Assembly: GCA_001828295.1 (NCBI GenBank)
Contig: MHYI01000060.1
Coordinates: 1-17,789 of the forward strand
Source: Planctomycetes bacterium RBG_16_41_13
GTDB lineage: Bacteria; Planctomycetota; Brocadiia; Brocadiales; Brocadiaceae
Length of the DNA: 17,789 bases
Direction: 5' to 3'
Both the position numbers and the translations under genes were made by a program. Shown here one piece after another: positions 797 to 17,789 of this stretch (positions are counted from its first letter, which is position 1; every line of letters starts with the position of its first letter). Below the pieces are notes generated by a model that did not search any database, had not been told where the DNA came from, and saw nothing but the letters and a program-made list of their open reading frames with translations.

Positions 797-811
797 TGAG
801 GTCGCACATTG
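797..811 (+). promoter_or_regulatory. Ribosome binding site and TTG start of the giant gene
   Basis: TGAGGT at 797-802 contains GAGG (798-801), with seven bases before TTG at 809. In this frame TAG (794) and TGA (797) close the frame just upstream, so no earlier start is possible. The next alternative, GTG at 869, has no comparable Shine-Dalgarno and would leave only eight codons before the LEPR motif. TTG is therefore the best start. Confidence 0.7.
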
Positions 812-3800
812 GGGATAGTTAAGAGGATAATAGACTGGACAGAATCTTCCGGTGCTGATTCCGGTGACGTGCGGCCTATAGTAATTGAGGCCCTCGAGCC
901 ACGGATATTGCTCTCTGCAGAGGGACTGATCGGCGCAGTTATAGTTGACCCACTTAAGTACTCACTGGTGGATAGCGCACAGCCTGCAGTTCTGCATGCT
1001 GAAGTGTTAGAAACTGTTGAAGAAACCGAACTCTGCAAACCTATATATACCTTTTCCCTGAATGAAACAGAGCCATCAGAAAGCGAATCGTCGTTAGAGA
1101 TTCTGAATCAAGTTCAGAATGACAGTTCATCTGTAATCGAAAAAGAGGTAATTATTGATAATCCTGATGTTGCAATCACGGACGACAGCCAGCCATATTA
1201 TGTAAACGACTCAGACACAATCATTGAGTCAGAGAGAGAATCAACTGACATACGGGGCCCTCCGCCTATCGCCGGCATTTACTATGCTGATTCCTCCCCT
1301 GAGGTTCTTAGCCGTCAGAATGACTACTGTAGTTTTATTGTTGAGGAAGACATAACCAGCGCTGTGGATTCTGGTAATCAATTCAGTGCGGTTGATCAGG
1401 AGAATGTCAATCCGCCGTATTGTTTTGTCTTCAATTCGGAGCCTCGAAATAATGATATAACCCTCAGACTTAATACCGAAGATCCAACAGTCCTTGAACT
1501 GTTCGATAATGTGGATGATCTTGTGCTCCTAAGTCACCCACTTACAGAGGTGAGTGGTGTCTCCATTTTTGGCACCGATCTTGGTGACGACCTTCTTACA
1601 ATTGATTTTTCACTACCATTCTGGCTCGAAGATGGTATTGAGTATCATGGTGGTGACGGATGGTTTGATAGCCTCGTGTTGGAAGGTAACGGATCCATAA
1701 ACAGCAGATACGCTCCTGTTGGAAACGATTCAGGTGTATTTGAACTCTCCTACGAATCCTTTAATACTGAAGTTTATTTCACAGGCCTTGAACCGGTATG
1801 GGTACATGACACAGCGAGTTTCACCTTTTCCACATCTGACTATGGACCAGGTCTGGATGCCCTGATAATAGGTGTAGACCCGGGAGGAGGGGGAGCGCCT
1901 GCTGATATGCCTGCGTCGAATAACCGTATCGGCGGCACTGTGGGTGGGGCAGTTTTTGAGACAGTTACCTTTTATAATATACCCGCAGTTACTATTAATA
2001 CAGCAATAAATGATACTGTTGCCATTAGAAATGATGTCATAACTATTGGTGCTTCCGGATTCATTGCCTCTGGACTGCAGAACTTAATCATTAATACAGG
2101 TGACGGTGATGACCTTATAGATATCGAAACCCCAACTCTTAGCCTGCCAACCCCAGGAGGGGCGATAACTATCAACGATACAGATCAGTTTAATATGATT
2201 GCCGGAGCCATCAATATTAATACGGCTCTCGTACTGACTGGAAATACTTCAATAACAAGCTCAGCAGGTGTTAACTTAAATAGTCCAATTACTACCCATG
2301 GTAAGAGGGTCAGCATAACTGCGGCTACCACGATAAACAGTAATGCTGCAGGTTCAATTAATACCTCAGGGGATAACGGCAATCCTGGGGGAAATGGTGG
2401 TGAGCTTTTTCTGCATTCTACGGGTGCTGGTGCAATTGCTCTGCTGGGAGACATAACAGCAAATGGTGGAAGAGGGTTGGCAAACGGAACCAACGGGGGG
2501 AGCGGGGGTATTATCACCATATTGAATGCCAATGGTCCGATTAGTGTTGACGACATATTCAGCACCGGAGGTGCCGGCGGGATAGGAGGCTCTGCCGGTG
2601 TTGCAGGTACGGTACAAATATCAGCTACAACAAATATTACACAGGAGGGTGGCACGGGAATCAGATCCGGAAATATGAAGCTGGTTACCACAGGGGGAAA
2701 TGTTTCCCTCGACAGTCAGGTAAACAACGTTGCGATACTGGCTGCAAGCTTAAGCGGGGCATCGGGTCTTAATTTCAAAAACACCGGCAGCCTCATGATA
2801 GGTACGGTAGCAGTAAGCGCTACCGGTTCTGCTAACCTGGCTCAGGTAATTGGGGTGACATCCGCCGGAGCAGGACAACCGATTACAGTTGTTACGACCA
2901 GCGGGAGTTTTACTATCAATAGGCCGGTTACGGCAAGTGGCGCCGGCAATATAGTTCTGAGGGCAGAGGGTCTGGGTCAGGATGTAATCGTCAATGCAGC
3001 CATCTCCTCTGGTTCCGGAAATATTACCCTGGTTGCATCCGGAGTAGTGATTCAATCGGTACTTGGCAGTACTACGACAACCGGAACGGTTGATATCCAG
3101 AGTCAGGGTAACCTGCCTCCTGACCTTGCATTTGATTTGTTTGAACAATTTGATTGGACTGACCAGGGTCCTGAAGAAACTTCCAGAGGGCAGGTTATGG
3201 GCCTGGATCCACAAGGTAATCCTGTAGCGGCGGCTATTCAGTCGTTTTTCTTTGAACCTGGCAATCCCAATATAGCCTATGCTGGAACGGTAAATGGCGG
3301 TATCTGGAAGACTGAGAATATTAATGCTACCAGGAAGGTAGAGCCTTACTCGCCAACTAAGGTTGATGCACCGTTAGTGAACGATCCCGCTCTGGGAAAT
3401 ATCAGATCAGCGGTGATTGTTCTTGCAAATATCGGTAACGGTACTTATTCAGCATCTTCTTTTACTAATGTAACAGGAGGAGGAGAAGATGGTTTAAGGT
3501 CGGTTGGGGTTGTTGATCCCGCAGGGGCTGGTAATGCATTTGTTTTACAGGCTGTTAATACCGGCGCTGGCTTTAATGGTCTTGAGGTTGTTTTCGCTAA
3601 CACCCTTCCTGCAGCGGGTTCAGAAACAGCAATCTATGACGCGGTAAACAAGAGGCTTACCATTAATATACGGGCCGGGGCCTCCACAGGCAACCAGGTT
3701 GTAACTGCAGTGAATGGTGGGGGAGTGTTTACTGCCAGGTTATATAAGGGCGGACTGACGCTTGGAGGAGTTTACCGGTACAAGATCGTCTTTGAAGATT

Positions 3801-6800
3801 CCACGGGCGCCCAAAGCAATGCATCGGTTGCATTTCCAACCGCTGGTATAGCGCTTAATTTTACTGCGGATGAAAATAAGATTCAGTTAACGAACTTACC
3901 GGTCGGCCCTCAGGGAACTGTAAAGAGACTCATTTATCGTCATATTATCGGTGAAGAGACTTACCGGTTTGTTGGGGAAGTAACCAATAACAATCCGCTC
4001 CAGTTCTTTGATGATACCATCTCAGATTTTGATTTGAAGGCTGTACCTGAACGTGAGATTGAGGTTCCATTTCCTGTGTGGGTGCCGCTGACTGATGAAT
4101 ACCCATCCCTTGCTGTTGGAGCTATGGCATTTGATCCAACTAATCCAAACATCCTGTATGCCGGAACAGGCAGTGCGAGCAGCAGCGAGTCAGGCGGCCG
4201 GTCTATCGGGATACTCAAGACCACAGACGGTGGTGACTCATTTGCTATAATCGGAGCCGATCAGTTTAACGATCTTAAGGTCAGGGATATCATTACACAC
4301 AATATTAACCCCGCTGGTGTTACAGTACGTTTCGATAACCAGGGTGGCAAGAGGCGGCTGACGATCTTCTTACAGCCGGATAATGCCGGTTCCAATGCAA
4401 CACAGGTCATAAACGCAGTAACTGCTGAGGCATCCTCTCCTTTTAATGTTTCGTTGTTTCAGCAAAACAATGATGGAACCGGAACATATTCCGCTGACCA
4501 GACATTTAATGGTGTGACTACAGGTGGATCTCCTGCTCTCCAGGCAACAGGCGCTATTTTTCCACCTGGCAGCAATAATTCACTTGTTTTAACGGCTGTT
4601 TCAAACGGGACCCAATATAATAACCTGACTGTGATACTTACAGGTGGCGGGACAAAGGGTTCTGAAGCCGCTTTATATAATCCCGGTACAAATACCCTTA
4701 CAATCTCTATTCAGACCGGTGCAGGTGGTTCTACTGCAACCGAAGTTATTGCCGCAATCAATAGCCAGGGGACGTTTAATGCGACCTTAGCTGAAAATGA
4801 CGGGACAGGGACATACCACGATTCATTCCAGGGTGTGAGTTCCGGTGGGGCTGCTGGAACCGCCGCTACGGTGATTATGAATCCGACCGGCATTAATAAT
4901 GCACTGATCTTCACTTCAAAAAATCCTGCTCTGGGACTCAATGATAATAATATAGAGGTAGTATTCCGTACCAGGATTCAGCAAGTGCTGGTAGCGACTG
5001 ACCGTGTGGGGGTCCGGGGAGGTCTTTTCCTTAGTCAGGATGGAGGTGACTTCTGGCGATTGATCTCCGGTACCGGCGGCCTGGCCCATGGGACAATGAC
5101 TGACCTCGCAATTGCCAATGATGGGACGGCTGCTAACGGCAGGTCATATTTTATGGCGCTGGTCGGAGGAGGAACCGGGGTATACCTTGATATTAATACC
5201 ATGGGGCAGCGCCTATCTGATGATCAGCAAAATGTCCAGATAGATGTCAGTTCCACCACTCCTGCGGATTGGGTCGCGCTTACCAATACCAGGAGTTTCA
5301 GTATAACCATTGGTGGTGTGCAGCGCCAAATCAATCCGGACTTTACCGCAGTTGCTTCAATGGCTGATGTAGCCACTGAAATCGCGGCGCGCATTAACGC
5401 GCCGGCGGCATTTGGCCCCAATACGGTATCAGCTAATATTAATGGGAATCGCCTGTTTATTGTAAACGCGTCTGATCGTTACACATTAGTAGGACAATTA
5501 AATGATCCTGCGGCCGGTGTCTCTCTTCTGGGTCCTCAGACCCCGGGTATATACAAAAGTACAGACAACGGCATTACCTGGACACAGTCAACTGGCCTTC
5601 CGGTAGGAGCCATGAAGGCATTTCGCACAGCAGGGCGGATAGAAATGGCGGTTGACGAAGCCGGCGGCAGACTTTACGCGGCCACCCTTCAGGGAGTAAG
5701 GACCAGTAATCAAAATGGCAGAGGAGGCCGGTTAGGCGGAATCTTCCGCTCTAATCTTGGAGTTGGCTGGCAGTTTATTATGGATTCTCCCCAATCAAGA
5801 GAATTAAGTACTTCCGGCACTGATGTCAACTTACGATCTGCAGCAGTGGACAGGGCTGTTGTAACTGTGACAGCAGGCGGCAATTTTAACACATTTGCCG
5901 GTCCGACCGGCTGGCAGTCACTCGGCAATACTACTACCTTTACAGCCCGTATTGACAACTTACCCCCGGTGACGGTGACACCTCAGTTGGCGGCTGTCAA
6001 TAATATAAATGATGTTGTTGCGGCTATTCAGACTGCCATTAACCAGGCAGCAGGAGCTGTAGCCCCTCTGACACCGGCACTGGATGCAAATGCAGTGACC
6101 GTTTCATGGGATGCTATACATAACCGTTTTGTTTTTGCGAGTAACACGCTGCTTCCTTTGACTATAAGTTCCGGCGGTGGCAATCCAATTTTCAACAATG
6201 CATTAGGGGTATTTTTTAATCAGGTTCAGGATATTCGTGATGCAAACCTGGTTGCACAGGCGTCGGTTACCGTTGACGGTCCTGCCAATATGACGGCAAC
6301 GCCTGCTTCATGGATAGCGTTAGGCGATAACAGGATATTCCGGTTAACATGGGGAAACCTGGGCCGTATGATAAACCCTCAGTTTGGCGCCATCCCGGCG
6401 GTGCCGGTTCCGAACATGGCAACTGTTGCGACAGCTATTCAAAATGCAATAAACACCGCTTTTGTCGGAGTCGTAGCATTTCCTGCAAATAGCGTTACGG
6501 TAACATGGAATGGAGCCAATAACATATTCTTATTTCAAAGTGCAGATGGTACAACACCTCTGAGAGTGGCAGAGGTGGCTGAGTTCATTGCTTATCCAAA
6601 CCAATTCTCCCTCTTTAATCAGCTTGAGAATAATAATGTCGGTTTTGGATATGCCAGTAATGGCGCCGACTACAATCGCCGCATTGAGGCTATAATTACA
6701 CCAGGAGGGGCAGGAATTTCAAACCCATTACAATGGCGGTCACTGGGAAATAGCAGGGTCTTTCGCGCCTATATAGGAGAGCAGACAGCCTTTGTAACTC

Positions 6801-9800
6801 CGCTATTCCTGACTATTCCAGATGATGGTACAGCAACAATGTTACATGTTGAGACCGCACTGCAGAATGCATTTAATTCCCAGTTCGGGGCCGGTATTAT
6901 CACAGTTATATGGGATACAAACAATAATGTGTTCCGGTTGAATACGGTAAACTCACGACTTATGATTCAGGAAATAAGCGGACGGAGTATGCCTGTTCCA
7001 GCCAATTCGTTGTTTAACAATGCCCTTGCAGTATATTTTGTTTCTGTTGCTATACAGAATGATTTCGACACATTGAAGGGTTTGGTTCCTCAGGCTTCCA
7101 TTCAGGTCAGCCATCCCAACGCAGCGCTTTGGGCAGCTCTGGGCAATACACGGAGTTTTTCTATCACTGTGGACGGAATACCTTACGATATCCCCCACAA
7201 TTTCGGCGATGCGCCTGCGATCAACAACATGCATGATGTGGCCACCCATTTTCAAAATGCAATCAATAATATCGCAGGGGCAGGTGCGGTAACTGTCACT
7301 TATAATCCGTTTTCCAGCCGTCTGATCTTTCAAAGCAACAATGTAAATCCTGATATAAGAGGTGTTGCCCTTATAAACCGCCCACGGGCCGATCTTCCAT
7401 CTCTTGTACAAGCTGACAGGCCGCATTTAGTCACAGACAGTGTTGTCCTGGTTAATCCGACAACAATCAGGGTTATTGCCGGGTCAACCAATCCTGCAGT
7501 ATGGGCTGCGTTAACCAACAATAGGTTATTCAGTCTCACGCAGGGGGCCAATACACGGGACATACAGCCTGATTTTTCCGGCGATTTAACAATGAACGAT
7601 GTTGCCGGAAGTATTCAGATAGGGTTAAGAGCCCAGTTCGGCGCCACTATTACAGTTAATTACAGTGCCGCGACACAGGAGTTCATCATTAATAGTACCG
7701 GCGGCAATATATTGAATCTGACTGATCCAACTGCCGGAGTCCGGTCTTTGATGGGTACTGATGTGACCTACCTCGTTGCACAGTCTCTGTTGCAGTCTGA
7801 AATCTACACTAATCTTCATCCTGGCAGTCAGGCTGGCAAGCACTTTGCGGTTAATATAGACCCTGCAAATCCTGACTTCATTTACATCAGTGGGGATGTA
7901 CAGGTTTCACTTTATAATCCATACCGGCTCGTTGATAATGCCGTAGAGGCCAGAGAGTGGGTAGGGAGAATCTTCCGGGTACATTCAATACCAGGAGCCA
8001 ATCCATCCGCTCAGGAACAAATCGTAGGAACAGGCGCCTTAATTCCGGTAAATGACCCGGAACTTGATAACCGCAGGGCTGTGCCTACAGCACCCCATGC
8101 CGATTCCCGCTTTATAACCTTTGCCAATGACGGTACACTCATTGAAGCCGATGATGGTGGAATATACCGACTTAATCATCCAAACGGTACGGGAGGCAAC
8201 AGGTTCTGGGAGTCGCTGAATGGCACCCTCAGGGTCACTGAGTTCAGCCACATAGCATATGATCCTATTAACGAAGTTTTCATTGGGGGTACACAGGATG
8301 TCGGAAATCAGGCACAGAGGAACACCAACCAGTTGACATGGGATTCTATATCAACCGGGGATGGGAATGTCAATCTTACCGCCGTTATTCCTGCCGGAGC
8401 CAATGCCGGAAACGTTAATCATTTAAGCATAGGTAATTCTCTTTCCACTGCCATAATAAATCAGTATGATCAGGCAAATCAATTAACAGGTACTTCGTGG
8501 GCAACTTTAAATTTCTGGGGGGTATTGAATGACTCTACCGCAGGATCCGGGACATGGTCAGATTTTTTAGACGACCAGACTGGTGGGTTTATCCAGGTTC
8601 AGGGTGCAGTAAGTCCGCTTCAAAACAATCAGTTTGCCATAGGCCGTACAGGGATTTATGAAACTACTGATAATGGAAACAGCTACAATAACATTGCACC
8701 TTCTGCCGATGGATTCTTCCGCCGTAATGGGGGGGTAGAGGCTGCCCTTGTTACTGCCCTTTCCTATGGTATTGATCCTGCCGCCGGAAATAACCAGCCT
8801 CTATATGTCGGACTGGAGTTTCACAACGATAATACCTATACCAATACTACGAATATGATCTATGTTCGGGATGCAGGCGGGACTTTCCCTGTTGCCCGTC
8901 AGTTCAATCTTGGCGCAGCAAATGGAACAATCCTTGATATTACAGTAGATCCCGGAAACTGGCGGGTGGCATATGCAGTCACATCAGCTAACAGAGTTTT
9001 TGCTACAGTAAACGGCGGGCAAAACTGGACACGTATAACCGGTCCTGCCGGTACTGAGATTGGCGCCCTGCCTCAGGGCATTGCCATTACCTCTGTGGAA
9101 CTTGTCCAAGTGCCTGAGCCGGACATCAAGATTACTGATCGCCGTGGAAACTCTGTTTTCATTAACCTTGATGGCGCAATAACCCTGACTGATGTAAAGA
9201 ACCTGATAGAGAGACAGGCTACCCGTGCTTCACTGAATATCACAGTGACTATTGATACTGCTACTGCAAATGGGCGACTGGTACTCACAGATAACAGCGC
9301 CGGTGGTACAGGTCACTTCAAATCTGAGGCTGTACCAGGGTCGCAGGCAGCCGGCGATCTTGGCCTTGCAGGTCATGATGTGAATGTTGCTGCCATCAAC
9401 GGTGCTGACTTTACAGCAGCAATCAATGCCGGAACCGCTATAACTGCAGCAATACGCAATGGACATGGGATTCGCATTAATACCGGTGTCCGCGATATCC
9501 TGCTGGTTGGTTCTGACGAGGGGATTTATCAGACATTTAATCCTGTTAATAAATCTAATCCGGCGGTGCCGGTACTTAGACTTAATACTAAGGGAAATGC
9601 CAATGTAACTTCATCCGGTGCCAACAACGATATACAATTCCGTACTAAACAAAACACATCATACTTCAATGGTGCGGTTGTCAGATTTACCCATCATGCA
9701 CCTATAGGAGCAGGCCTTCCAACAGTATCGTGGGATCCATTGAATCGTGTTCTCGAATTCAGGATAAATGTGGGAACCACAACTGCTAATCAGGTTAAAC

Positions 9801-12800
9801 AGGTGTTGGATGGGAACAATATCACTAAGGAGTTCTTCACGGCTACTGTTGAAGGTACTGGAAGCGGCGTAGTTGCTGCAGGCTCCGCAACCTTTAATAA
9901 TGGCGCCTATCCTTTCCTGCCCTTTGTTAAACTCGGAAACATATTGCCCAATGCCCAGGTAATTGATATTGAGTACATTCCGGCTGTTCTTAATACAGCA
10001 GGAGCAGTGCGGGGTGATGACCTTGTAGTTGGTACACGTGGACGCGGCGCATGGAAGGTACAGGACTTTTCCCTGTTATATTATATTGAAGAGATGCCTG
10101 AGTTGAAGATCATCCTGGCAGGGGGTAGTGAAGAGATGATCTCTCTTAAGCTCGACGAGACCAGGGATTGGATCGTACATGTTTACAAAGGTGATGTACT
10201 CAAACAGAGCTTTTCTGTCCGCAACATTTATCGCATTGTGATACAGGGTAGTGACGGGAACGACACACTTCAGGTGGATGCCCGCATCAAGGTTCCCGGT
10301 GGTATTATTTTTGATGCCGGCAATACTTCAGTGAACAGTACACTGAACGTATTTGGTGATGGGTCGCACTCTGTTTTTAAACAGACTCCTCCCCCCGGCT
10401 CAGGAAATGGTTTCGTAATCATAAATGAGGCAGGTGGAAAAAGTCTTACCATTGAATATAACTATGTTCAGAGCCGGAACATCAATTTAAATGCCAATCA
10501 ATTAAGCCGATTCCGTCAGGGATTGGAACGGTTGGTGACCATGGATGAGGTCAACGATGTATTTAGTCGTAATACCATACCGTTTATAGGACAATCCCTG
10601 GCAGATGCAATGGTAGGTAATCCTCCCTCGGCTCCCCAGCCGATTGGATTCCCTGCCATATTTGATGATGCAACTAATGCCCTTATTGCTGATTTGACTC
10701 CTCAGGGTTTGTCTCTGAATGACCTTGAAGGACATTATACAATCCTCAGCCGTCTAATTGAAACCGGCCCGGATGGATTCCAACTGTCCGCAATTGGTGA
10801 AACCATTACAGATCTCGCATCACTGAGGGATGCACTTGACAACCTCGACGAGATTGACGGCAATGTTACGTACACCGAAACTGCTGATTCAGTTACGTTT
10901 GACGTGAATATCAAAAGGAAATTTGCCGGTGAGGGGCAGATAGACGTTGCTGCATTTGGAGATGCTCTACATCTGAATGGTGATGTAGTTTATGGTTTTG
11001 ACATTGACCTTCATCTCGTATTTGGTGTTGACGAGTTTGGTTTCTTTATTAATACAGAGGCTGTCACCGGCCCCATGATAAAGGTCAGTAACATTGATTT
11101 GTTTGGTGAAGTAAATGCCCTGGGTAATATTGGTTTTATTGATGTAAACCTCACTGACGGAATACTGGAGGTTAACGACCAGGCCGGTGTTGTCGTAAAC
11201 ATCCATGATCCTTCTGCAGATGAGATAACAGGAGAAAGTCCCGGCCGATTCAGACTCCATGAGTTCAGCTTTTCTGATATTACAGATATATTTACCGAGG
11301 AATTGCTGGGAAATGCGGCTGCAGACGACATCGTCTTTTCCGGTGACTTCAGTTTATCAGGTAATGTCCCGGGTATCAGTAATCTGCTGCCTGCCAGCGG
11401 GAATGCCGGCCTGATCTTTACATGGACGGATATCACTGACCCACTGAGTGTGACTGTCGAGGGCAAGTCCGACAGTCCTGCAGGCCAGGCCATGGCGCAA
11501 TACCTCAACTTCGGATTTAACAATCTTAGTATCGCAGACCAGATTAAGGCTAAGCTGGAGGCCCTGCGTGATAACTGGCTGGCGGAACTTAAACAGTCGG
11601 ATAGTTTTAACCTTGCCATACCCTTTGTGGACAGCTCTCTGGCAGATACACTTGATTTTGCCGCGGCCTTTGATGCTGCAGTCCTTGCTAAGATAGACTT
11701 TGAAAAGATCGCGACTTTCCAGGATTTTGTGGCTGCTGTAAATCAGGCCGGACTCGTCCCTGATGGCGAGGAGGTCACCTATGATTCCGCCACACAGGCG
11801 TTTACAATCCCCCTTGAATTTAATGTTGACCTTCACAAGTTGGGTCTGCGTGACCTCAATGTTATTGGCAGGATCAACCTGCAGATGCTGGCTAATGAGG
11901 GGTTGATTCAGATTGGCGACTATGTTGATCCCAATGACCTCCTCAATGGGGGGTATGTGACCCTCGCCCAGTTGGTCAATCTGGGACTAATTGAGGCAGA
12001 GCTGATCGTTGACTGGAGTCAGATAGATGAGAATGCGGTCATCAATTCCGGCATCATCGGTCAGAATCTGCTCGATGCTGAAGGTCTGGTCGGCGGCGGC
12101 AATCTGGTCAATATGGACGAGCTTGTTGACGGCGGTTTTGTAACCCTCGGTGATCTGGCAGATGCCGAGTTTGTGACGACGGGAACAATCGTTGGCAATC
12201 TCGGTTTTGTACGGGATATCAATCTGATGGCAACGAACATCGCAGACCTGGGGCTCGACGCATCCAGCCTGATTCAATCTGTTGACCTTGTAGATATTAC
12301 AGATCTCCTAACCAGCGGCCTTACTTCATTAGAGGACCTATTTGACACGACGCTGCTTGACCTTGGTGATGTCGGCATCAACACCATGCCGATTTCTGAT
12401 CTCCTGACCTCAGGGCTTGTTACACTTCAGGATCTTGTAGATCAGGGGCTGGTTGCGGCTAACGATTTTATGTCTGATGCACTCGTAAATATTCAGGATC
12501 TCCTTACGGACACTGCAGTTGGCCTCGATGACCTCATTGCCGGAGCATTACTCGATGCATCTGATTTTGATCCATCTGCATTGATTAACAGGGCAGCCGT
12601 ATTTTCTAACAATATTGCCACCCTATCTGAACTGATTGACAATGCACTGGTTACTGTGGGTGATTTTGCTGATATTGCATTGAGTTCGCTCAGCCTCGTC
12701 TCTTCGGGCCTCGCCACACAGTTTGAGCTTAACTATAACCATTTAATTGACGGGTCTGGAAATGTCTCATTGCACAGTCTTGTAAATTCCGGTGTGATAA

Positions 12801-15800
12801 CATTGCACGAGCTTGCCGGACATAGTCTTATATCCCCATCTAACCTTACTGTAAGCAATTTTTCGCTCGCTAACCTCCTGAATTCAGGGATTACCAATGT
12901 GGCAGAGCTGGTGAGTGTAAACATGTTGCAGGTTGAAGACCTGTTAACGGATACGCTTGACCTCCAGGGTCTTCTTGATTCTGCGCTGCTGGACCTTTCC
13001 GATTTAGTGACCAATGGATTGGTTGGGTTTGCTGAAATGATCCTCGATGAGATTGATATAGCCGGTCTCATAGATACGGCTCTCGTTGATCTCGGTGACC
13101 TTGCGCGTGAAAACCTGCTTCTGCCGGCACAGATAGCGATTGATGAGCTGCTCTCATCAGAGATAAGCGCTAAAGCCAATTCATTATTTAACAGTATTGT
13201 TACTGCCGGAGGACTTATCGGACCGGGCTCTATCATTGACATTGATCAGCTTCTTGCGAACAGCCCGATCAAATTGAGCCACCTTATTTCCTTTGGGATT
13301 ATTGACCATAATGATATCCGTCCGCTCGGTGATGTGGATAAGAGCGCCCTTCTCGCATCGCATATTATAGACCGGAGCATGATCGAGAGAAACAAGATGC
13401 CGGAGATTATACAAAAAGGCTACCTGACTATTTCAGACCTCTTTGACCTTGGTCAGATCAGTGAGGGTAACCTGGCAGACTTGCCTGCTGTCCAGCTTAG
13501 CCTGTTTGGCTTCTCCCGTGAGACGATGGAAACGTTAAACGGCCTTGGCCTGATAGCCTATGGAGATGCTATTCCCCTCAATCTACTTCTGGCCAATACA
13601 GATGTTACTCTGAGCGGCCTCCTTCAGTTCGGCCTCATATCCATTGGAGACCTGAATAGTAATCTTTCCAACGTTCTTCTCGATAACGTTTTTGTTCAGG
13701 GGAATGTTGACAGGAATAACCTGCTTGATTCAGACCTCATTGAGATGGATGTCCTGACAGGTCTGATCTCTCAGGATGGAAGTGGTAATGACATTGTTGC
13801 GATTGCAGATATTATTGACAACAGCCTTGCAACCCTTGCTGACCTTGTGCGTGCTGGTCTGATTACCCCGTCACACTTTAATCTGGGCAATGTGACGATC
13901 TCTGAAAATAACCTGCTTGCATCGGGTCTTGTATCCCAGAACAAACTGGATGATAACTACCTCGTGCGGGATGATAGTCCTGATTTTGTTGAGGTTGCCC
14001 CTCTGCTTTCTCTTCAGTTTGTGACCCTCTATGACCTTGCTCTCCACGGTTTCATCAGCGAGGCAAATCTTAATATAGATAACCTTGGGCTTATTGCTGT
14101 GCTGGAATCTGATGTCATTGGTGAAAACGCACTGACAGCAGCCGGTCTTGGTGGCGCTGATACTGTTGATATGGAAGAACTCCTTGCCTCAGGGCTGGTT
14201 ACAGAAGAAGACCTTATTCTGAATGGGTTGGCATTCCCCGGCGATTTCTATGAAGATAGTGTGGTTACTCTAAGTACGCTGATTACTGAAGGACTGGTTG
14301 ATGAGACTGATCTGGCGGCAAATGGGCGGCTCCCGCTTGATGAACTCCTCGATTCAGGTGTCGTTGGACGCAAGTATATAGAGGATAATGGTCTTGCCAA
14401 TATAGATAAAGATGCCCTGGTTGATTCTGGATTAGTGACAGAAAGTGAACTCGTTGCGGCTGGTCTATTAGGATACCACATTAATCTCGCGGAATTGCTT
14501 GCATCGGGACTGGTTACCATTGATCAGTTGAAAGATGTGGGATTGGCAGATGGATTTATCCTGATCGAGGACCTTTTAAGTGACAGCCACCTGACATTTG
14601 CAAGTCTGGTTACTTCTGCTGTCCTTACCAGGGATGACTTCAGAAACAAGATCTTTGAGCAGGATCAGCTTGAAGCTACGGAGCACAGCAATGTTCCGGT
14701 GTTTCTAAACGGACAGTTCGACGGCATTGTACACCTCGGGACTGTTGGTATAGATACCCTGCTTAATTCGATCCTTTTTGATGTTACCCTTTTTGACTTT
14801 GTTCAGCATGAGTTCGTTGACATCTTTGATTTTGACAATATTGATCTTACTGAGTCTGAGATCGCTGACAGTGGCCTGGCAGATGTCGTTCTCAATGCTA
14901 TCGAGACAGCCTTTTCAATAGATTTCGAAGATGTCATTGACGATACCATAGGCATTTACAGTCTTGTGGCAATGGATATCCCGGGCGCCTCCCTCCTGAA
15001 TCTTATTACTGTGAGGATCTTGGACGCCGCTGACCTTACTGATCCCGGCATGGGACTTGACATAGTTGACCTGGAGAGGTCCCCGCTGTTTGAGAATGGG
15101 GACTTAAACAACTATATCAGCGCCCATCAGGTCTATCTCTACGACATACTTGAGACCATATACCTCGGCAATCTCGTGACATGGGGATTGGTCAATGTGA
15201 ATGACCTGATCATACGGAATCCAGGCAGCCTTGCCTCATTTGTCGGGGACGGTCTGCTGGATAAAATGGATTTTATAAACAAGACACTCAGTGCATCAGC
15301 CCTGAATGCCTCTGCTGTTGTTTCTACCGCTGCCTTGAACACCCATAACCTGATTACAGCAGGCAATGTCTCGCTTCACAGTCTCATAGATTCAGGCCTC
15401 GTTTCGCTCTCTATGCTTATTGATGAAGGGTTTGTCAATGCGACTGACCTTTCATCAACTGTTATCGGGCGTGATCAGCAGGATGTACTTGACTCTGATG
15501 TCATTGACAGGGCGCTAATCGTGGCGAACTCGCTCATTACAGGTGTGGATAATGATCAGGTTATTCTTAACGGGGGCGGGAGCCTCCTCAGTTCAGGTAT
15601 CGCCTCGCTGTTAGAGCTTGCAAGAAGCGGCGTGGTTGACCCGTCATACATGGATAATGCAGCCACTATTGACAAAGACGATCTTGTTGACAACGGCCTT
15701 GCAACTCTTTCCAGCCTCATTGATGCCGGATTAATCGGTACGGCGGATCTTTCCATCACCTCTATTGACCTTGAGAGGATATTGACGACCGGCGTGCTCG

Positions 15801-17789
15801 ACCCGGGTGCCTTGAATAACCTTGATCAGCTCATTGCCCTGGGTCTGTTGACCACAGCAGAGGTTGACGGGTTTGGAGCTATTGATAAAGGTACACTGGT
15901 TACTTCAGGCCTGGTTACAAATAATGAGCTTGTTTCAGCCGGTCTGCTGGGTACGCATGTAGACCTTGTTGCATTGCTTGCATCCGGTCTTGTTACCATT
16001 GATCAGTTGAAAGACGAGGGACTGGATGACCGGAGTGGAAGGGTAGAGCTCGCAGGGCTACTTGCTGCTACGCCAACACTGGTCACCCTCTCACAACTTG
16101 AAGGTGCAGGTCTTGTGACGACGGAGATTAACCTTTCTGACCTGCTCAAGTCCGGGCTTGTTGACCTGATTGACCTTGTTGATGACAGCATAAACAAGGC
16201 GGCGCTACTTGCGGCAGTCTTTCCTGTAAGCGGACCGGTTACGGAAGGCGAGCTTATTACAGCCGGTCTGTTTGACCCATCTGTAAATATCTCTGGTCTG
16301 ATTGCATCAGGTCTGGTTACTGTACAGAACCTTGTTGATGCCACTCTGATCAGTACCAGCATTCAATCCTCAGAGCTTCTTGCACTGAATCTTGTTACTG
16401 GTCAGCAACTGGTCAGCACAGGACTGATTACTCAGGGTCAGCTTGACAGTCAAACCTTTCCTGCGATCAGTATCGTCAGTCTCTTGAATGCGCTGCTTGT
16501 TCCATTGGACAGCAGCACACATCTGATAACCATCGCTGACCTCTCTGCCCACGGGTTACTATCTGCGACAACTGTAGACAAGAACGACCTTATCGCCCCT
16601 GCATTTATAGCAGCAACCGGGGTGACTATTACGGAGAACCAGCTCGTAGAGGCCGGTCTCCTCCCGGGAACGATCAAACTTGACGGTATCGTGTCCGAAG
16701 GTCTCGTAACATTAACTGAGCTTAACAATGCAGGTCTGACACGCGCACCGCCAATAACCCGCAGTGATTTAGATGACCTCCCGTCAGTTGATTACGACGT
16801 CCTCGGCCTCTCGCCGGTTCAGCTTGCTCAACTGCTTGCATCCGGCATCGTAGCGCCCGGTGATGACCGGGTTGACCTCGATGACCTGCTTGATACCAAT
16901 ATCGGCCCGTCTCCCCTGTTTGACCTTGCAGACCTCGTCCGCCTCGGTCTGGTGGATGAGACTGATCTGGATGGCCATGACCTTCTCCTGTTTGGTCTCA
17001 ATGATAGAGTAGTTTCATTAGCTGGAAACTATGGCCTTCGTCTGACAGGCCTTGTTACAGAGGCCATTGCAGATATGAAGGCGACTGTTTCAGCAGGGTT
17101 TGACCTCATTGTTGACCTAAATGGTGAGCCTGCAACCCTGACAGAAGGTATGCTCACCTGGTTTGTTGAGGATGCCTCTGTTACCGGTTCAGTATCATTT
17201 GATGTGACTGACATTGATGCAGCCGGAAGGCTCGGATTTGTCGGCGTCACCCTTGCTGATGTCTCAGGCCTCGACAGCCTCATTCACGTGGATGTCACGA
17301 GGACTGCTGTACTGGATACAGATCATAGTTCCCTTACCACAAATGACCGCAGATTCAATCTTGATGCAATAGCAGGCGCAGTTGCAGCCGGTTCCCTTTA
17401 TACAGGGCTGACCGGTTCGGCAAATGCAGTCCTGAGGGGCATAAAGGTCAACACAGGTATCGGCGGCATCCCTGTTGCCAATGGCGCAGAGATTCAATTC
17501 AATGTAGAGGACCTTACAAGGAAGAAGACAGCAGACAACTACATTACACTGGATCTGACAAACCTTCCGGGTATATTCCGCATTGCAGAATATTTACGCC
17601 TGGATGATATCATGTCTGCGGTACTCAGGGCTCGCGACTATATGAATAAGGCGCTTGATAAACTCCCATTCTTCTCAACAGATCCAAACTCGCCGGATTA
17701 TGAAAGTACAATGGATTCGGTAATTCCGGTTATCAACAAGACCCCGAGGGAGTTGTTGAGCCTCCTTGTTGAGATTGACAATGCTGTTG
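809..17789 (+). CDS. Giant LEPR-XLL multidomain surface/adhesin-like protein, 3' end beyond window
   Basis: The frame from TTG 809 stays open for 5,660 codons plus one base to the window edge, so the protein exceeds 5,660 residues. The N-terminus carries the LEPR-XLL motif (LEPRILLSA, codons 29-37), typical of very large exported repetitive proteins. Then come an acidic linker, a haemagglutinin-like beta-helix region (about 369-770), an Asp-box beta-propeller split by inserted modules (about 800-3089), a GSDGNDTL beta segment (about 3147), a 347-residue module in tandem, and a 1,700-residue array of 11-residue repeats inside the second module copy. No Sec signal peptide or membrane segment is apparent. 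I found only three cysteines (76, 174, 205), which fits an extracellular protein. The adjacent TolC-family gene makes type I secretion plausible. Function is inferred: adhesion or a cell-surface filament. No catalytic site is identified. The C-terminus is not visible. Confidence 0.93.
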   Translation, partial: MGIVKRIIDWTESSGADSGDVRPIVIEALEPRILLSAEGLIGAVIVDPLKYSLVDSAQPAVLHAEVLETVEETELCKPIYTFSLNETEPSESESSLEILNQVQNDSSSVIEKEVIIDNPDVAITDDSQPYYVNDSDTIIESERESTDIRGPPPIAGIYYADSSPEVLSRQNDYCSFIVEEDITSAVDSGNQFSAVDQENVNPPYCFVFNSEPRNNDITLRLNTEDPTVLELFDNVDDLVLLSHPLTEVSGVSIFGTDLGDDLLTIDFSLPFWLEDGIEYHGGDGWFDSLVLEGNGSINSRYAPVGNDSGVFELSYESFNTEVYFTGLEPVWVHDTASFTFSTSDYGPGLDALIIGVDPGGGGAPADMPASNNRIGGTVGGAVFETVTFYNIPAVTINTAINDTVAIRNDVITIGASGFIASGLQNLIINTGDGDDLIDIETPTLSLPTPGGAITINDTDQFNMIAGAININTALVLTGNTSITSSAGVNLNSPITTHGKRVSITAATTINSNAAGSINTSGDNGNPGGNGGELFLHSTGAGAIALLGDITANGGRGLANGTNGGSGGIITILNANGPISVDDIFSTGGAGGIGGSAGVAGTVQISATTNITQEGGTGIRSGNMKLVTTGGNVSLDSQVNNVAILAASLSGASGLNFKNTGSLMIGTVAVSATGSANLAQVIGVTSAGAGQPITVVTTSGSFTINRPVTASGAGNIVLRAEGLGQDVIVNAAISSGSGNITLVASGVVIQSVLGSTTTTGTVDIQSQGNLPPDLAFDLFEQFDWTDQGPEETSRGQVMGLDPQGNPVAAAIQSFFFEPGNPNIAYAGTVNGGIWKTENINATRKVEPYSPTKVDAPLVNDPALGNIRSAVIVLANIGNGTYSASSFTNVTGGGEDGLRSVGVVDPAGAGNAFVLQAVNTGAGFNGLEVVFANTLPAAGSETAIYDAVNKRLTINIRAGASTGNQVVTAVNGGGVFTARLYKGGLTLGGVYRYKIVFEDSTGAQSNASVAFPTAGIALNFTADENKIQLTNLPVGPQGTVKRLIYRHIIGEETYRFVGEVTNNNPLQFFDDTISDFDLKAVPEREIEVPFPVWVPLTDEYPSLAVGAMAFDPTNPNILYAGTGSASSSESGGRSIGILKTTDGGDSFAIIGADQFNDLKVRDIITHNINPAGVTVRFDNQGGKRRLTIFLQPDNAGSNATQVINAVTAEASSPFNVSLFQQNNDGTGTYSADQTFNGVTTGGSPALQATGAIFPPGSNNSLVLTAVSNGTQYNNLTVILTGGGTKGSEAALYNPGTNTLTISIQTGAGGSTATEVIAAINSQGTFNATLAENDGTGTYHDSFQGVSSGGAAGTAATVIMNPTGINNALIFTSKNPALGLNDNNIEVVFRTRIQQVLVATDRVGVRGGLFLSQDGGDFWRLISGTGGLAHGTMTDLAIANDGTAANGRSYFMALVGGGTGVYLDINTMGQRLSDDQQNVQIDVSSTTPADWVALTNTRSFSITIGGVQRQINPDFTAVASMADVATEIAARINAPAAFGPNTVSANINGNRLFIVNASDRYTLVGQLNDPAAGVSLLGPQTPGIYKSTDNGITWTQSTGLPVGAMKAFRTAGRIEMAVDEAGGRLYAATLQGVRTSNQNGRGGRLGGIFRSNLGVGWQFIMDSPQSRELSTSGTDVNLRSAAVDRAVVTVTAGGNFNTFAGPTGWQSLGNTTTFTARIDNLPPVTVTPQLAAVNNINDVVAAIQTAINQAAGAVAPLTPALDANAVTVSWDAIHNRFVFASNTLLPLTISSGGGNPIFNNALGVFFNQVQDIRDANLVAQASVTVDGPANMTATPASWIALGDNRIFRLTWGNLGRMINPQFGAIPAVPVPNMATVATAIQNAINTAFVGVVAFPANSVTVTWNGANNIFLFQSADGTTPLRVAEVAEFIAYPNQFSLFNQLENNNVGFGYASNGADYNRRIEAIITPGGAGISNPLQWRSLGNSRVFRAYIGEQTAFVTPLFLTIPDDGTATMLHVETALQNAFNSQFGAGIITVIWDTNNNVFRLNTVNSRLMIQEISGRSMPVPANSLFNNALAVYFVSVAIQNDFDTLKGLVPQASIQVSHPNAALWAALGNTRSFSITVDGIPYDIPHNFGDAPAINNMHDVATHFQNAINNIAGAGAVTVTYNPFSSRLIFQSNNVNPDIRGVALINRPRADLPSLVQADRPHLVTDSVVLVNPTTIRVIAGSTNPAVWAALTNNRLFSLTQGANTRDIQPDFSGDLTMNDVAGSIQIGLRAQFGATITVNYSAATQEFIINSTGGNILNLTDPTAGVRSLMGTDVTYLVAQSLLQSEIYTNLHPGSQAGKHFAVNIDPANPDFIYISGDVQVSLYNPYRLVDNAVEAREWVGRIFRVHSIPGANPSAQEQIVGTGALIPVNDPELDNRRAVPTAPHADSRFITFANDGTLIEADDGGIYRLNHPNGTGGNRFWESLNGTLRVTEFSHIAYDPINEVFIGGTQDVGNQAQRNTNQLTWDSISTGDGNVNLTAVIPAGANAGNVNHLSIGNSLSTAIINQYDQANQLTGTSWATLNFWGVLNDSTAGSGTWSDFLDDQTGGFIQVQGAVSPLQNNQFAIGRTGIYETTDNGNSYNNIAPSADGFFRRNGGVEAALVTALSYGIDPAAGNNQPLYVGLEFHNDNTYTNTTNMIYVRDAGGTFPVARQFNLGAANGTILDITVDPGNWRVAYAVTSANRVFATVNGGQNWTRITGPAGTEIGALPQGIAITSVELVQVPEPDIKITDRRGNSVFINLDGAITLTDVKNLIERQATRASLNITVTIDTATANGRLVLTDNSAGGTGHFKSEAVPGSQAAGDLGLAGHDVNVAAINGADFTAAINAGTAITAAIRNGHGIRINTGVRDILLVGSDEGIYQTFNPVNKSNPAVPVLRLNTKGNANVTSSGANNDIQFRTKQNTSYFNGAVVRFTHHAPIGAGLPTVSWDPLNRVLEFRINVGTTTANQVKQVLDGNNITKEFFTATVEGTGSGVVAAGSATFNNGAYPFLPFVKLGNILPNAQVIDIEYIPAVLNTAGAVRGDDLVVGTRGRGAWKVQDFSLLYYIEEMPELKIILAGGSEEMISLKLDETRDWIVHVYKGDVLKQSFSVRNIYRIVIQGSDGNDTLQVDARIKVPGGIIFDAGNTSVNSTLNVFGDGSHSVFKQTPPPGSGNGFVIINEAGGKSLTIEYNYVQSRNINLNANQLSRFRQGLERLVTMDEVNDVFSRNTIPFIGQSLADAMVGNPPSAPQPIGFPAIFDDATNALIADLTPQGLSLNDLEGHYTILSRLIETGPDGFQLSAIGETITDLASLRDALDNLDEIDGNVTYTETADSVTFDVNIKRKFAGEGQIDVAAFGDALHLNGDVVYGFDIDLHLVFGVDEFGFFINTEAVTGPMIKVSNIDLFGEVNALGNIGFIDVNLTDGILEVNDQAGVVVNIHDPSADEITGESPGRFRLHEFSFSDITDIFTEELLGNAAADDIVFSGDFSLSGNVPGISNLLPASGNAGLIFTWTDITDPLSVTVEGKSDSPAGQAMAQYLNFGFNNLSIADQIKAKLEALRDNWLAELKQSDSFNLAIPFVDSSLADTLDFAAAFDAAVLAKIDFEKIATFQDFVAAVNQAGLVPDGEEVTYDSATQAFTIPLEFNVDLHKLGLRDLNVIGRINLQMLANEGLIQIGDYVDPNDLLNGGYVTLAQLVNLGLIEAELIVDWSQIDENAVINSGIIGQNLLDAEGLVGGGNLVNMDELVDGGFVTLGDLADAEFVTTGTIVGNLGFVRDINLMATNIADLGLDASSLIQSVDLVDITDLLTSGLTSLEDLFDTTLLDLGDVGINTMPISDLLTSGLVTLQDLVDQGLVAANDFMSDALVNIQDLLTDTAVGLDDLIAGALLDASDFDPSALINRAAVFSNNIATLSELIDNALVTVGDFADIALSSLSLVSSGLATQFELNYNHLIDGSGNVSLHSLVNSGVITLHELAGHSLISPSNLTVSNFSLANLLNSGITNVAELVSVNMLQVEDLLTDTLDLQGLLDSALLDLSDLVTNGLVGFAEMILDEIDIAGLIDTALVDLGDLARENLLLPAQIAIDELLSSEISAKANSLFNSIVTAGGLIGPGSIIDIDQLLANSPIKLSHLISFGIIDHNDIRPLGDVDKSALLASHIIDRSMIERNKMPEIIQKGYLTISDLFDLGQISEGNLADLPAVQLSLFGFSRETMETLNGLGLIAYGDAIPLNLLLANTDVTLSGLLQFGLISIGDLNSNLSNVLLDNVFVQGNVDRNNLLDSDLIEMDVLTGLISQDGSGNDIVAIADIIDNSLATLADLVRAGLITPSHFNLGNVTISENNLLASGLVSQNKLDDNYLVRDDSPDFVEVAPLLSLQFVTLYDLALHGFISEANLNIDNLGLIAVLESDVIGENALTAAGLGGADTVDMEELLASGLVTEEDLILNGLAFPGDFYEDSVVTLSTLITEGLVDETDLAANGRLPLDELLDSGVVGRKYIEDNGLANIDKDALVDSGLVTESELVAAGLLGYHINLAELLASGLVTIDQLKDVGLADGFILIEDLLSDSHLTFASLVTSAVLTRDDFRNKIFEQDQLEATEHSNVPVFLNGQFDGIVHLGTVGIDTLLNSILFDVTLFDFVQHEFVDIFDFDNIDLTESEIADSGLADVVLNAIETAFSIDFEDVIDDTIGIYSLVAMDIPGASLLNLITVRILDAADLTDPGMGLDIVDLERSPLFENGDLNNYISAHQVYLYDILETIYLGNLVTWGLVNVNDLIIRNPGSLASFVGDGLLDKMDFINKTLSASALNASAVVSTAALNTHNLITAGNVSLHSLIDSGLVSLSMLIDEGFVNATDLSSTVIGRDQQDVLDSDVIDRALIVANSLITGVDNDQVILNGGGSLLSSGIASLLELARSGVVDPSYMDNAATIDKDDLVDNGLATLSSLIDAGLIGTADLSITSIDLERILTTGVLDPGALNNLDQLIALGLLTTAEVDGFGAIDKGTLVTSGLVTNNELVSAGLLGTHVDLVALLASGLVTIDQLKDEGLDDRSGRVELAGLLAATPTLVTLSQLEGAGLVTTEINLSDLLKSGLVDLIDLVDDSINKAALLAAVFPVSGPVTEGELITAGLFDPSVNISGLIASGLVTVQNLVDATLISTSIQSSELLALNLVTGQQLVSTGLITQGQLDSQTFPAISIVSLLNALLVPLDSSTHLITIADLSAHGLLSATTVDKNDLIAPAFIAATGVTITENQLVEAGLLPGTIKLDGIVSEGLVTLTELNNAGLTRAPPITRSDLDDLPSVDYDVLGLSPVQLAQLLASGIVAPGDDRVDLDDLLDTNIGPSPLFDLADLVRLGLVDETDLDGHDLLLFGLNDRVVSLAGNYGLRLTGLVTEAIADMKATVSAGFDLIVDLNGEPATLTEGMLTWFVEDASVTGSVSFDVTDIDAAGRLGFVGVTLADVSGLDSLIHVDVTRTAVLDTDHSSLTTNDRRFNLDAIAGAVAAGSLYTGLTGSANAVLRGIKVNTGIGGIPVANGAEIQFNVEDLTRKKTADNYITLDLTNLPGIFRIAEYLRLDDIMSAVLRARDYMNKALDKLPFFSTDPNSPDYESTMDSVIPVINKTPRELLSLLVEIDNAV
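884..931 (+). other. LEPR-XLL N-terminal motif of the giant protein
   Basis: Codons 26-41 read I-E-A then LEPRILLSA then E-G-L-I. The core L-E-P-R-x-L-L-S-A is the defining pattern of the LEPR-XLL domain, known near the N-terminus of very large, repetitive, probably exported bacterial proteins. Its position close to the start supports the TTG start. The exact role of the domain is not established to my knowledge. Confidence 0.9.
932..1909 (+). other. Acidic N-terminal linker and beta-rich segment
   Basis: Codons 42 to about 250 are rich in Glu, Asp and Ser with little repetition and look unstructured. All three cysteines I found in the protein lie here (76, 174, 205). From about codon 255 (GTDLGDDLLTIDFSLPFW) the sequence becomes beta-rich, with a GDDLLTID turn. 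A Gly/Pro-rich hinge (DPGGGGAPADMP) sits near codon 357. I recognise no named domain here. Confidence 0.6.
1910..3118 (+). other. Filamentous-haemagglutinin-like beta-helix region
   Basis: Codons about 369-770 alternate short Val/Ile/Thr strands with Gly/Asn turns, for example NININTALVLTGNTSITSS-type runs and a Gly-rich stretch around 2380-2600 with NGGRGLANGTNGGSGG and STGGAGGIGGSAG. The pattern T-I-N-x-A-x-x-x-G-x-I matches right-handed beta-helix adhesins of the FHA type. The two-partner-secretion N-terminal domain is absent, so only the fold is suggested. Likely an extended stalk. Confidence 0.6.
3743..4039 (+). other. FN3-like inserted domain in the propeller
   Basis: Codons 979-1077 run GGLTLGGVYRYKIVFEDSTG, then NASVAFP, then IQLTNLPVGPQGTVKRLIYR, then YRFVGEVTNNNPLQFFDD. 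This is the common pattern G-x-L-x-x-G-x-Y-x-Y-K-x-x-x-x-D-x-x-G, N-L-P-V-G-P-x-G-x-x-x-R-x-I-Y-R, Y-x-x-V-G-x-x-x-x-N found in FN3-like domains of phage and surface proteins. It sits between blades 1 and 2. Confidence 0.65.
4262..4978 (+). repeat. Flagellin-IN-like inserted modules between blades 2 and 3
   Basis: Two related units follow each other. Each has a strand pair (RRLTIFLQPDNAGSNATQV; NTLTISIQTGAGGSTATEV), a short helix ending VINAV or VIAAIN, a strand FNVSL or FNATL, and a closing DGTGTYSADQTFNGVTTGG or DGTGTYHDSFQGVSSGG. A third relative lies at about 3509-3742 (RLTINIRAGASTGNQVVTAV). The strand-helix-strand pattern with I-N or A-V-N resembles flagellin/FliD IN repeats. Homology is suggested, not proven. 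Confidence 0.5.
5222..5545 (+). repeat. Trp-anchored module R1
   Basis: This is the first copy of a repeat with the signature W-x-A-L-x-N-T-R-x-F-S-I-T-x-x-G, then I-N-P-x-F, then M-x-D-V-A-T-x-I, then a terminal strand N-R-L-F-I-V. The anchor Trp is codon 1488 (5270). It lies between the third and fourth Asp boxes. The later copies R2-R6 are in tandem. Confidence 0.6.
5840..7795 (+). repeat. Five tandem Trp-anchored modules R2-R6
   Basis: Anchor Trp codons lie at 5912, 6311, 6734, 7130 and 7502, spaced 133, 141, 132 and 124 residues. Each copy reads W-x-x-L-G-N-x-R-x-F, then I-x-P-x-F, then M-x-x-V-x-x-x-x-Q-x-A-x-N, then T-V-x-W or T-V-T-Y, then a strand such as NRFVFAS or SRLIFQSN. The copies are well diverged in protein and DNA, so the array is old. 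The pattern resembles strand-helix-strand IN or DUF3383-like modules of phage and flagellar proteins. The array is a single large insertion between propeller blades. Confidence 0.65.
9122..9382 (+). other. Flagellin-IN-like module near the propeller end
   Basis: Codons 2772-2858 run DIKITDRRGNSVFINLDGA, TLTDVKNLIER, LNITVTID, GRLVLTDNSAGGTGHF and AAGDLGLAG. This closely follows the flagellar hook IN motif: a strand, an acidic-Gly turn, a helix with V-x-x-x-I, a strand, L-V-L-T-D-x-S-x-G-G-T-G, and a final A-x-D-L-G-L-x-G. It is the clearest copy of this type in the window. It sits between a late Asp box and the closing blade. Confidence 0.6.
10076..10489 (+). other. Beta segment with one GSDGNDTL turn
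   Basis: After the closing propeller strand comes a beta-rich segment of about 138 residues. Its core is VIQGSDGNDTLQVDARI (codon 3145 on), followed by GGIIFDAGN and STLNVFGDG. Such I-x-G-x-x-G-N-D-T-L-x-V-D turns are frequent in giant LEPR-XLL proteins and resemble a single calcium-binding beta-roll turn. There is only one such turn, so it is not an RTX array. Confidence 0.5.
10490..11497 (+). repeat. Recurrent 347-residue module, copy 1
   Basis: The module starts with a helical part (QLSRFRQGLERLVTMDEV) followed by IPFIGQSLADAM (Ile at codon 3257). It continues with a helix-strand pair (TDLASLRDALDNLDEIDGNV) and a beta-sheet part containing GNIGFIDVNLTDG (codon 3439), GRFRLHEFSFSDIT and LIFTWTDITDPLSV. 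The next copy's IPFVDSSLADTL begins at codon 3604, so the period is 347 residues. No Pfam name comes to mind, but this helix plus I/L-P-x-x-x-x-S-L-x-D-x-L pattern is frequent in giant LEPR-XLL proteins. Confidence 0.6.
14390..14554 (+). repeat. Segmental duplication inside the array, copy 1
   Basis: This 55-codon segment covers five successive 11-residue units (ending LLASGLVTIDQLKDVGLADG). Aligned without gaps to 15869-16033, 38 of 55 residues are identical by hand count. The higher similarity than between adjacent units suggests duplication of blocks of units. Confidence 0.65.
15869..16033 (+). repeat. Segmental duplication inside the array, copy 2
   Basis: This 55-codon segment (ending LLASGLVTIDQLKDEGLDDR) matches 14390-14554, 493 codons upstream. 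The DNA is nearly identical around ttaccattgatcagttgaaa but diverged elsewhere. A weaker third relative precedes it at about 15616-15750 (SGVVDPSYMDNAATIDKDDL against SGVVGRKYIEDNGLANIDKD of copy 1). Confidence 0.65.
17573..17789 (+). repeat. Recurrent module, copy 3, start only
   Basis: The helical start (YLRLDDIMSAVLRARDYMNK, ALDKLPFF) is followed by VIPVINKTPRELLSLL (Ile at codon 5639), matching the IPFIGQSLADAM and IPFVDSSLADTL landmarks of copies 1 and 2. From the GRLGFVG landmark to this point is 166 residues; the same interval between copies 1 and 2 is 165. The window ends inside this copy, so the tandem modules continue. Confidence 0.55.

Follow-up and report, generated by a model that had tools for sequence, protein, structure and literature searches.

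An array of 11-residue units of similar length in distant relatives, a possible solenoid-type spacer in a giant LEPR-XLL protein

According to PMC11573180, huge proteins are more frequent in Planctomycetota than in most bacteria, and examples from this phylum with Big_9, cadherin, HemolysinCabind and dockerin domains are known. Here, we analyzed a window of 17,789 nucleotides (the whole stretch of DNA considered, from contig MHYI01000060.1 of Planctomycetes bacterium RBG_16_41_13), which consists mostly of one long open frame encoding a long array of 11-residue units. A 14,875-residue relative of the window protein carries the same kinds of domains as the huge proteins in PMC11573180. Huge extracellular-type proteins of Planctomycetota are already known, and it is the repeat itself that is nameless in the libraries searched; the terms "11-residue," "solenoid," "tandem repeat" and "LEPR" gave no hit when the main text of PMC11573180 was searched by word, and our literature searches did not turn up the repeat. 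We lean slightly towards reading the array as a solenoid-type spacer whose length is nearly fixed, within a giant LEPR-XLL protein that is probably secreted and belongs to Planctomycetota-type bacteria; the array may represent a type of rod-like repeat structure that has so far gone undescribed.

The long frame starts with TTG, with GAGG 7 bases upstream as read from the sequence. Near its N terminus, the protein shares with the LEPR-XLL proteins (LEPR-8K) the element described by NCBIfam model NF012209, which it matches at an E value of 4e-6 with 26.2 bits against a cut-off of 17, making it a LEPR-XLL protein; this model spans only 24 positions and is silent on the array. The parts of the frame are as follows.

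809 to 17788, forward strand: open frame with the array, at least 5,660 residues, still open at the window's end
881 to 937, forward strand: LEPR-XLL domain (residues 25-43), NCBIfam NF012209
11576 to 11878, forward strand: conserved domain directly upstream of the array (residues 3590-3690), from a profile built on alignment A1
11879 to 17050, forward strand: stretch between the two flanking domains, holding the array (residues 3691-5414, 1,724 residues)
11879 to 14629, forward strand: first half of the array, with 46 units that often sit in adjacent pairs (position matrix), helical in the model
14630 to 15292, forward strand: divergent middle of the array (residues 4608-4828), 6 units recognized (position matrix)
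15293 to 16990, forward strand: second half of the array, 34 units, with strand-helix-helix super-units in the model (position matrix and model)
16199 to 16738, forward strand: best modeled stretch (residues 5131-5310), with a predicted local distance difference test score (pLDDT) of 71-90 per ten-residue block
17051 to 17548, forward strand: conserved strand-rich domain directly downstream of the array (residues 5415-5580), from profile and model

Among described repeats, LRV, plakin and SHOCT presumably share with the array short helices, Gly-hydrophobic turns and a capping residue; they differ from it in that the array's unit is 11 residues long, and none of them was listed for the array piece or for the members of alignment A4 (six relatives plus the window piece, seven members in all). 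A Pfam scan of window positions 11801-17788 at E values up to 1 returned no family at all (LRR, TPR, ankyrin, HEAT, plakin and SHOCT included), and two long relatives (P0003 and P0011) scanned at E values up to 0.1 likewise returned none. At E values up to 5, the A4 members matched only Planc_extracel, RAMA (E value 1.6, 9.2 bits versus 35.2) and AF1548-like_C; the first of these, the planctomycete extracellular domain PF07595, was matched by two of the seven members (best E value 4.6e-5) and not by the window's array piece. Such scans can miss weak relatives of short repeats, and the HMMER filters drop most weak matches. The RTX nonapeptide repeat (PF00353), considered as a candidate, has no match in positions 11801-17788 and has one elsewhere in the 14,875-residue relative. 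Taken with the NCBIfam, PDB sequence and fold searches, which likewise named no family for the array, these scans bear out the initial annotation, which had found no repeat family to name.

That annotation had described positions 11873-17002 as about 150 repeats of a degenerate unit x-x-[DE]-L-hyd-x-x-G-L-V-T with an 11-residue period. The frame is indeed open throughout this stretch (residues 3689-5398, no interruption), and among lags of 1 to 39 residues, the residue autocorrelation peaks at lag 11 (0.156; next, lag 32 at 0.124). Starting from a seed pattern, a refined position matrix recognizes 86 units in residues 3691-5414, with the consensus L-x-[DE]-L-[VLI]-[DA]-[SA]-G-L-[VI]-[TDS] and with hydrophobic residues common at positions 1, 4, 5, 9 and 10. 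The proposed unit thus holds for Leu at position 4 (76 of 86 units), Gly at position 8 (58) and Leu at position 9 (58), and less so for D or E at position 3 (42). Neither the number nor a uniform period survives: spacings between units are exactly 11 residues in 28 of 85 cases, 15-18 in 19, 21-23 in 17 and other values in 21 (largest, 70), and only the 6 units of the middle are recognized in residues 4608-4828, so the array is not a clean one.

The unit count depends on the procedure, as a matrix refitted on each of 200 shuffled sequences yields a mean of 58 and a maximum of 78 pseudo-units, which makes the count weak evidence by itself. This weakness does not extend to adjacency, with 28 adjacent units observed and at most 8 in the same shuffles; with the matrix fixed, shuffles give a mean of 17 and a maximum of 27 units. 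In a held-out test, the matrix was trained on the 46 units that precede residue 4600 and then found 34 units in residues 4641-5398, 11 of them adjacent at exactly 11 residues, compared to a mean of 3.2 units, a maximum of 9 and an adjacency of at most 1 in 200 shuffles. Because held-out units and adjacency lie far above the shuffles, the array is real, and the figure of about 150 counts every 11-residue slot.

A search with residues 3690-5400 (973 candidates scored) returned 11 long relatives at E values up to 0.001 (P0001-P0011), which align with 31-50% identity over 78-100% of the query. A 549-residue query (7,996 scored) added six other proteins of 381-956 residues (39-78% identity over 23-60% of the query), and a profile search (1,058 scored) returned five, of which one, P0018, was new. 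The match to the window begins at residues 3552-3582 in 9 of the 11 long relatives (at 3383 in P0006 and 3777 in P0002) and reaches the window's last residue in 9 of the 11; in P0009 and P0010 it stops at residue 5022 and a second match continues. Applied to these 11 proteins and to the frame of the 14,875-residue relative (genome G001), the window-trained matrix finds 54-89 units each, a number that includes the background of 12-16 units found in five shuffles of the G001 frame. The units are conserved one by one: aligned units of the window and its relatives are 52% identical (830 pairs, those with more than one gap excluded), and units within the window protein are 28% identical to each other (3,655 pairs). 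Position-specific motifs are conserved as well, such as IDHND[VI]RP, which had been chosen as a conserved pattern by the locus search.

Within the array, a 45-residue segment occurs twice with 71% nucleotide identity over 135 bases, and at the first of the two places, several relatives have instead a loop that is rich in Asp and partly EF-like.

14408 to 14542, forward strand: segment with its partner at 15887-16021
15887 to 16021, forward strand: segment with its partner at 14408-14542

The array lies between two conserved domains. Profiles of both flanks, built from alignment A1 (the window plus P0001-P0011), were run against 21 proteins, some of them short fragments; matches in the 12 A1 members are expected, and those in G001 and in a second giant relative, from genome G546, are independent. 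The upstream profile finds a first-copy match in 16 of the 21 proteins, its source proteins among them, and 13 proteins have both first-copy flanks. Their flank-to-flank distances are 1719, 1718, 1669, 1668, 1766, 1697, 1721, 1293, 1299, 1824, 1724 (window), 1716 and 1716 residues, that is, 1,716-1,724 residues in 6 of 13, with a range of 1,293-1,824. In eight proteins, a second, paralogous flank-array-flank copy follows further along, with a length of 298-307 (six proteins) or 361-363 residues (two proteins) and 6-11 strict units. In P0018, parts of both flanks (residues 4040-4315) lie only 112 residues apart with no unit between them, and the protein has no array of at least four units anywhere; these 112 residues read mostly as the following domain plus an unrelated insert. 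This array-free place corresponds to the position of G001's second, short copy, not to that of the long array, and it fits either insertion in the other proteins or loss in P0018. The downstream strand-rich domain has no Pfam name; it shows a low-Z likeness to outer-membrane barrels, BPI-like and Vps13 chains that is within noise.

Similar length, conservation unit by unit and a position between two conserved domains all favor a fixed three-dimensional structure over a freely growing stalk. The filament proposed in the initial annotation has no direct support; an array that measures 1,716-1,724 residues in 6 of 13 proteins and has a conserved domain on either side fits a fixed spacer or scaffold better than a polymerizing filament.

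The units, their one-by-one conservation, the similar array length, the short second arrays, the array-free place in P0018 and the extracellular-type domains of the G001 relative are observed and speak for the spacer reading; the shape and rigidity of the array, and the secretion, host and role of its protein, are inferred. In each 11-residue unit, a capping residue (T, D or S at position 11) would start a two-turn helix at positions 1-6 of the next unit; a Gly turn at position 8 would follow, and then a short extended stretch of hydrophobic residues (L-V/I). Unit pairs of the second half, together with a short strand, would form strand-helix-helix super-units, and the whole array would act as a rigid spacer fixing the distance from the N-terminal part to the downstream domains. 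Over the 1,150 pooled units of the relatives, position 11 is T, D, S or N in 69% and position 3 is D or E in 61%, a pattern that would fit a helix-capping box. Two AlphaFold2 models, of residues 3560-4360 (16 sequences) and 4761-5660 (12 sequences), agree locally in making positions 1-6 helical, in 33 of 33 units for the first and in 83-97%, by position, of 36 units for the second. In residues 5131-5310 of the second model, where 15 of 18 ten-residue blocks reach a pLDDT of 80-90, a strand-helix-loop-helix recurs, and 11 super-unit spacings in residues 5024-5354 measure 21-38 residues, five of them 26-28; this suggests a larger unit in the second half, made of a strand plus two helices.

Several observations weigh against this spacer reading. 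The models are weak overall (mean pLDDT, 53.9 and 58.1; predicted template modeling score [pTM], 0.30 and 0.32), so a superhelix is not established; of the regular superhelix suggested in the initial annotation, the regular local secondary structure is borne out, and the overall arrangement is not, given these pTM values and the 43% and 39% of residues with a pLDDT below 50. Exact 11-residue spacing is the minority case noted above, and the length is not absolutely fixed, with 7 of 13 proteins outside 1,716-1,724 residues and two at 1,293 and 1,299. The sequence signs agree with the helix only in part. Pro occurs only twice at positions 3-7 of the 1,150 pooled units, as opposed to 30, 14, 11 and 23 times at positions 1, 2, 8 and 11, which speaks for the helix, but this count is partly circular because the matrix that selects the units disfavors Pro at conserved positions. 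Insertions also speak for it, falling after positions 9 and 10 in 23 of 35 cases; deletion starts, on the other hand, show no loop preference (17 of 32 at positions 2-6, 11 of those at position 4), giving 46 insertions and deletions in the loop and 21 in the helix when pooled. Finally, no secretion system was identified with confidence beside the gene, either in the Pfam scan of the window or among the neighbors in G001 and G546.

The main rival to the spacer reading is a binding scaffold, in which each unit is kept for binding a specific partner (a polysaccharide, another protein or the flanking domains) and the similar length is a by-product. The much greater likeness of aligned units between relatives than of units within one protein and the conserved position-specific motifs are what such a scaffold would show; yet Pfam and NCBIfam name no binding or catalytic domain in the array, and packing in an old, irregular solenoid would also keep units individually. 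We consider the scaffold rather unlikely as the primary explanation, and both could be true. An improbable alternative is a largely disordered or collapsed linker that is periodic by chance: 348 of 801 and 352 of 900 residues of the two models have a pLDDT below 50, but relatives align at 31-50% identity over some 1,700 residues, and one stretch combines good local confidence with regular helices. Similarly improbable is a succession of degenerate half loops of the EF-hand or dockerin type (G-x-[IV]-[TDS]-x-x-[DE]-L) that binds calcium at least in places, given that complete calcium-ligand loops occur in 2 of 1,237 units where 3.8 are expected (a biased test) and that the array has no Pfam match. 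A continuous right-handed coiled coil of hendecad period, giving a fiber, would account for the period and the hydrophobic positions and is the least probable of all, since Gly occupies position 8 in 58 of 86 units, linkers of 4-6 residues are frequent and both (weak) models break the helix after position 6.

Under the spacer reading, we tentatively propose, at less than even confidence, that the array is the first member of a new class of solenoids—a single two-turn helix per 11 residues, paired into strand-helix-helix units—and acts as a ruler, about 1,720 residues long, in a family of bacterial surface proteins that reach 15,000 residues. Foldseek gave no match to the models at E values up to 0.001, the models being weak and long; in the VIA fold search, the matches listed lie mostly on the strand-rich domain. 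Fold searches with such models, which found no clear relative, are no proof of a new fold. A piece of 200-300 residues offers a small, testable target for a possibly new repeat fold, and a repeat that is conserved by unit and similar in length over a large sequence distance gives a handle on how huge proteins are constructed.

Both giant relatives are single frames, of 14,875 residues in G001 (L015-L018) and 13,515 residues in G546 (L027-L029; the genome is a single 3.49-Mb contig), with a LEPR-like motif near the start of each. Four consecutive matches between the two, with short gaps and 27-47% identity, cover G001 residues 754-14200, so the frames are collinear over about 13,000 residues. 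A scan of the G001 frame found RTX, FG-GAP, Big_9, cadherin, Big_5 and dockerin domains above the Pfam cut-offs, a set of extracellular type that includes immunoglobulin/cadherin domains, and a subthreshold C-type lectin match. Among the nine neighboring frames scanned, none is a clear secretion partner: the six in G001 comprise two with dockerin, one Peptidase_C39, one polysaccharide export protein, one ABC ATPase and one without a match, and the three in G546 an aminotransferase, a family-31 glycosidase and one without a match.

The array module is rare in the genome samples covered: among 392 genomes sampled from the phylum, it was found only in the seed, among 397 from the class in the seed and G546, and among 13 from the family of G002 again only in the seed. 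A genome pattern search, an insensitive method, found two loci, both in Phycisphaerae metagenome-assembled genomes. The source names of the relatives include metagenome-assembled genomes of Phycisphaerae SM23_30, Planctomycetes, Desulfuromonadales and Limisphaerales, names that can be wrong.

Elsewhere in the window, and bearing on possible type I secretion by a TolC-type machine, a partial frame at 2-385, upstream of the long one, resembles the C-terminal end of an outer membrane efflux protein of the TolC type (OEP), with an E value of only 0.77, under the Pfam cut-off, and no PDB match at E values up to 1. Upstream of the array, BNR/Asp-box and Sortilin-Vps10 matches are weak and under the Pfam cut-offs, and an NCBIfam glycosylhydrolase model gives a short match, likewise under its cut-off. 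At 5200-7800 (residues ∼1465-2330), a regular expression finds six divergent copies, undetected by self-BLAST at an E value of 1e-4, of a motif W-x-x-L-[GT]-[ND]-x-[RT]-x-F ... P-x-F ... V-x-x-x-[IL]-x-x-x-[IL]-N, spaced 124-214 residues apart.
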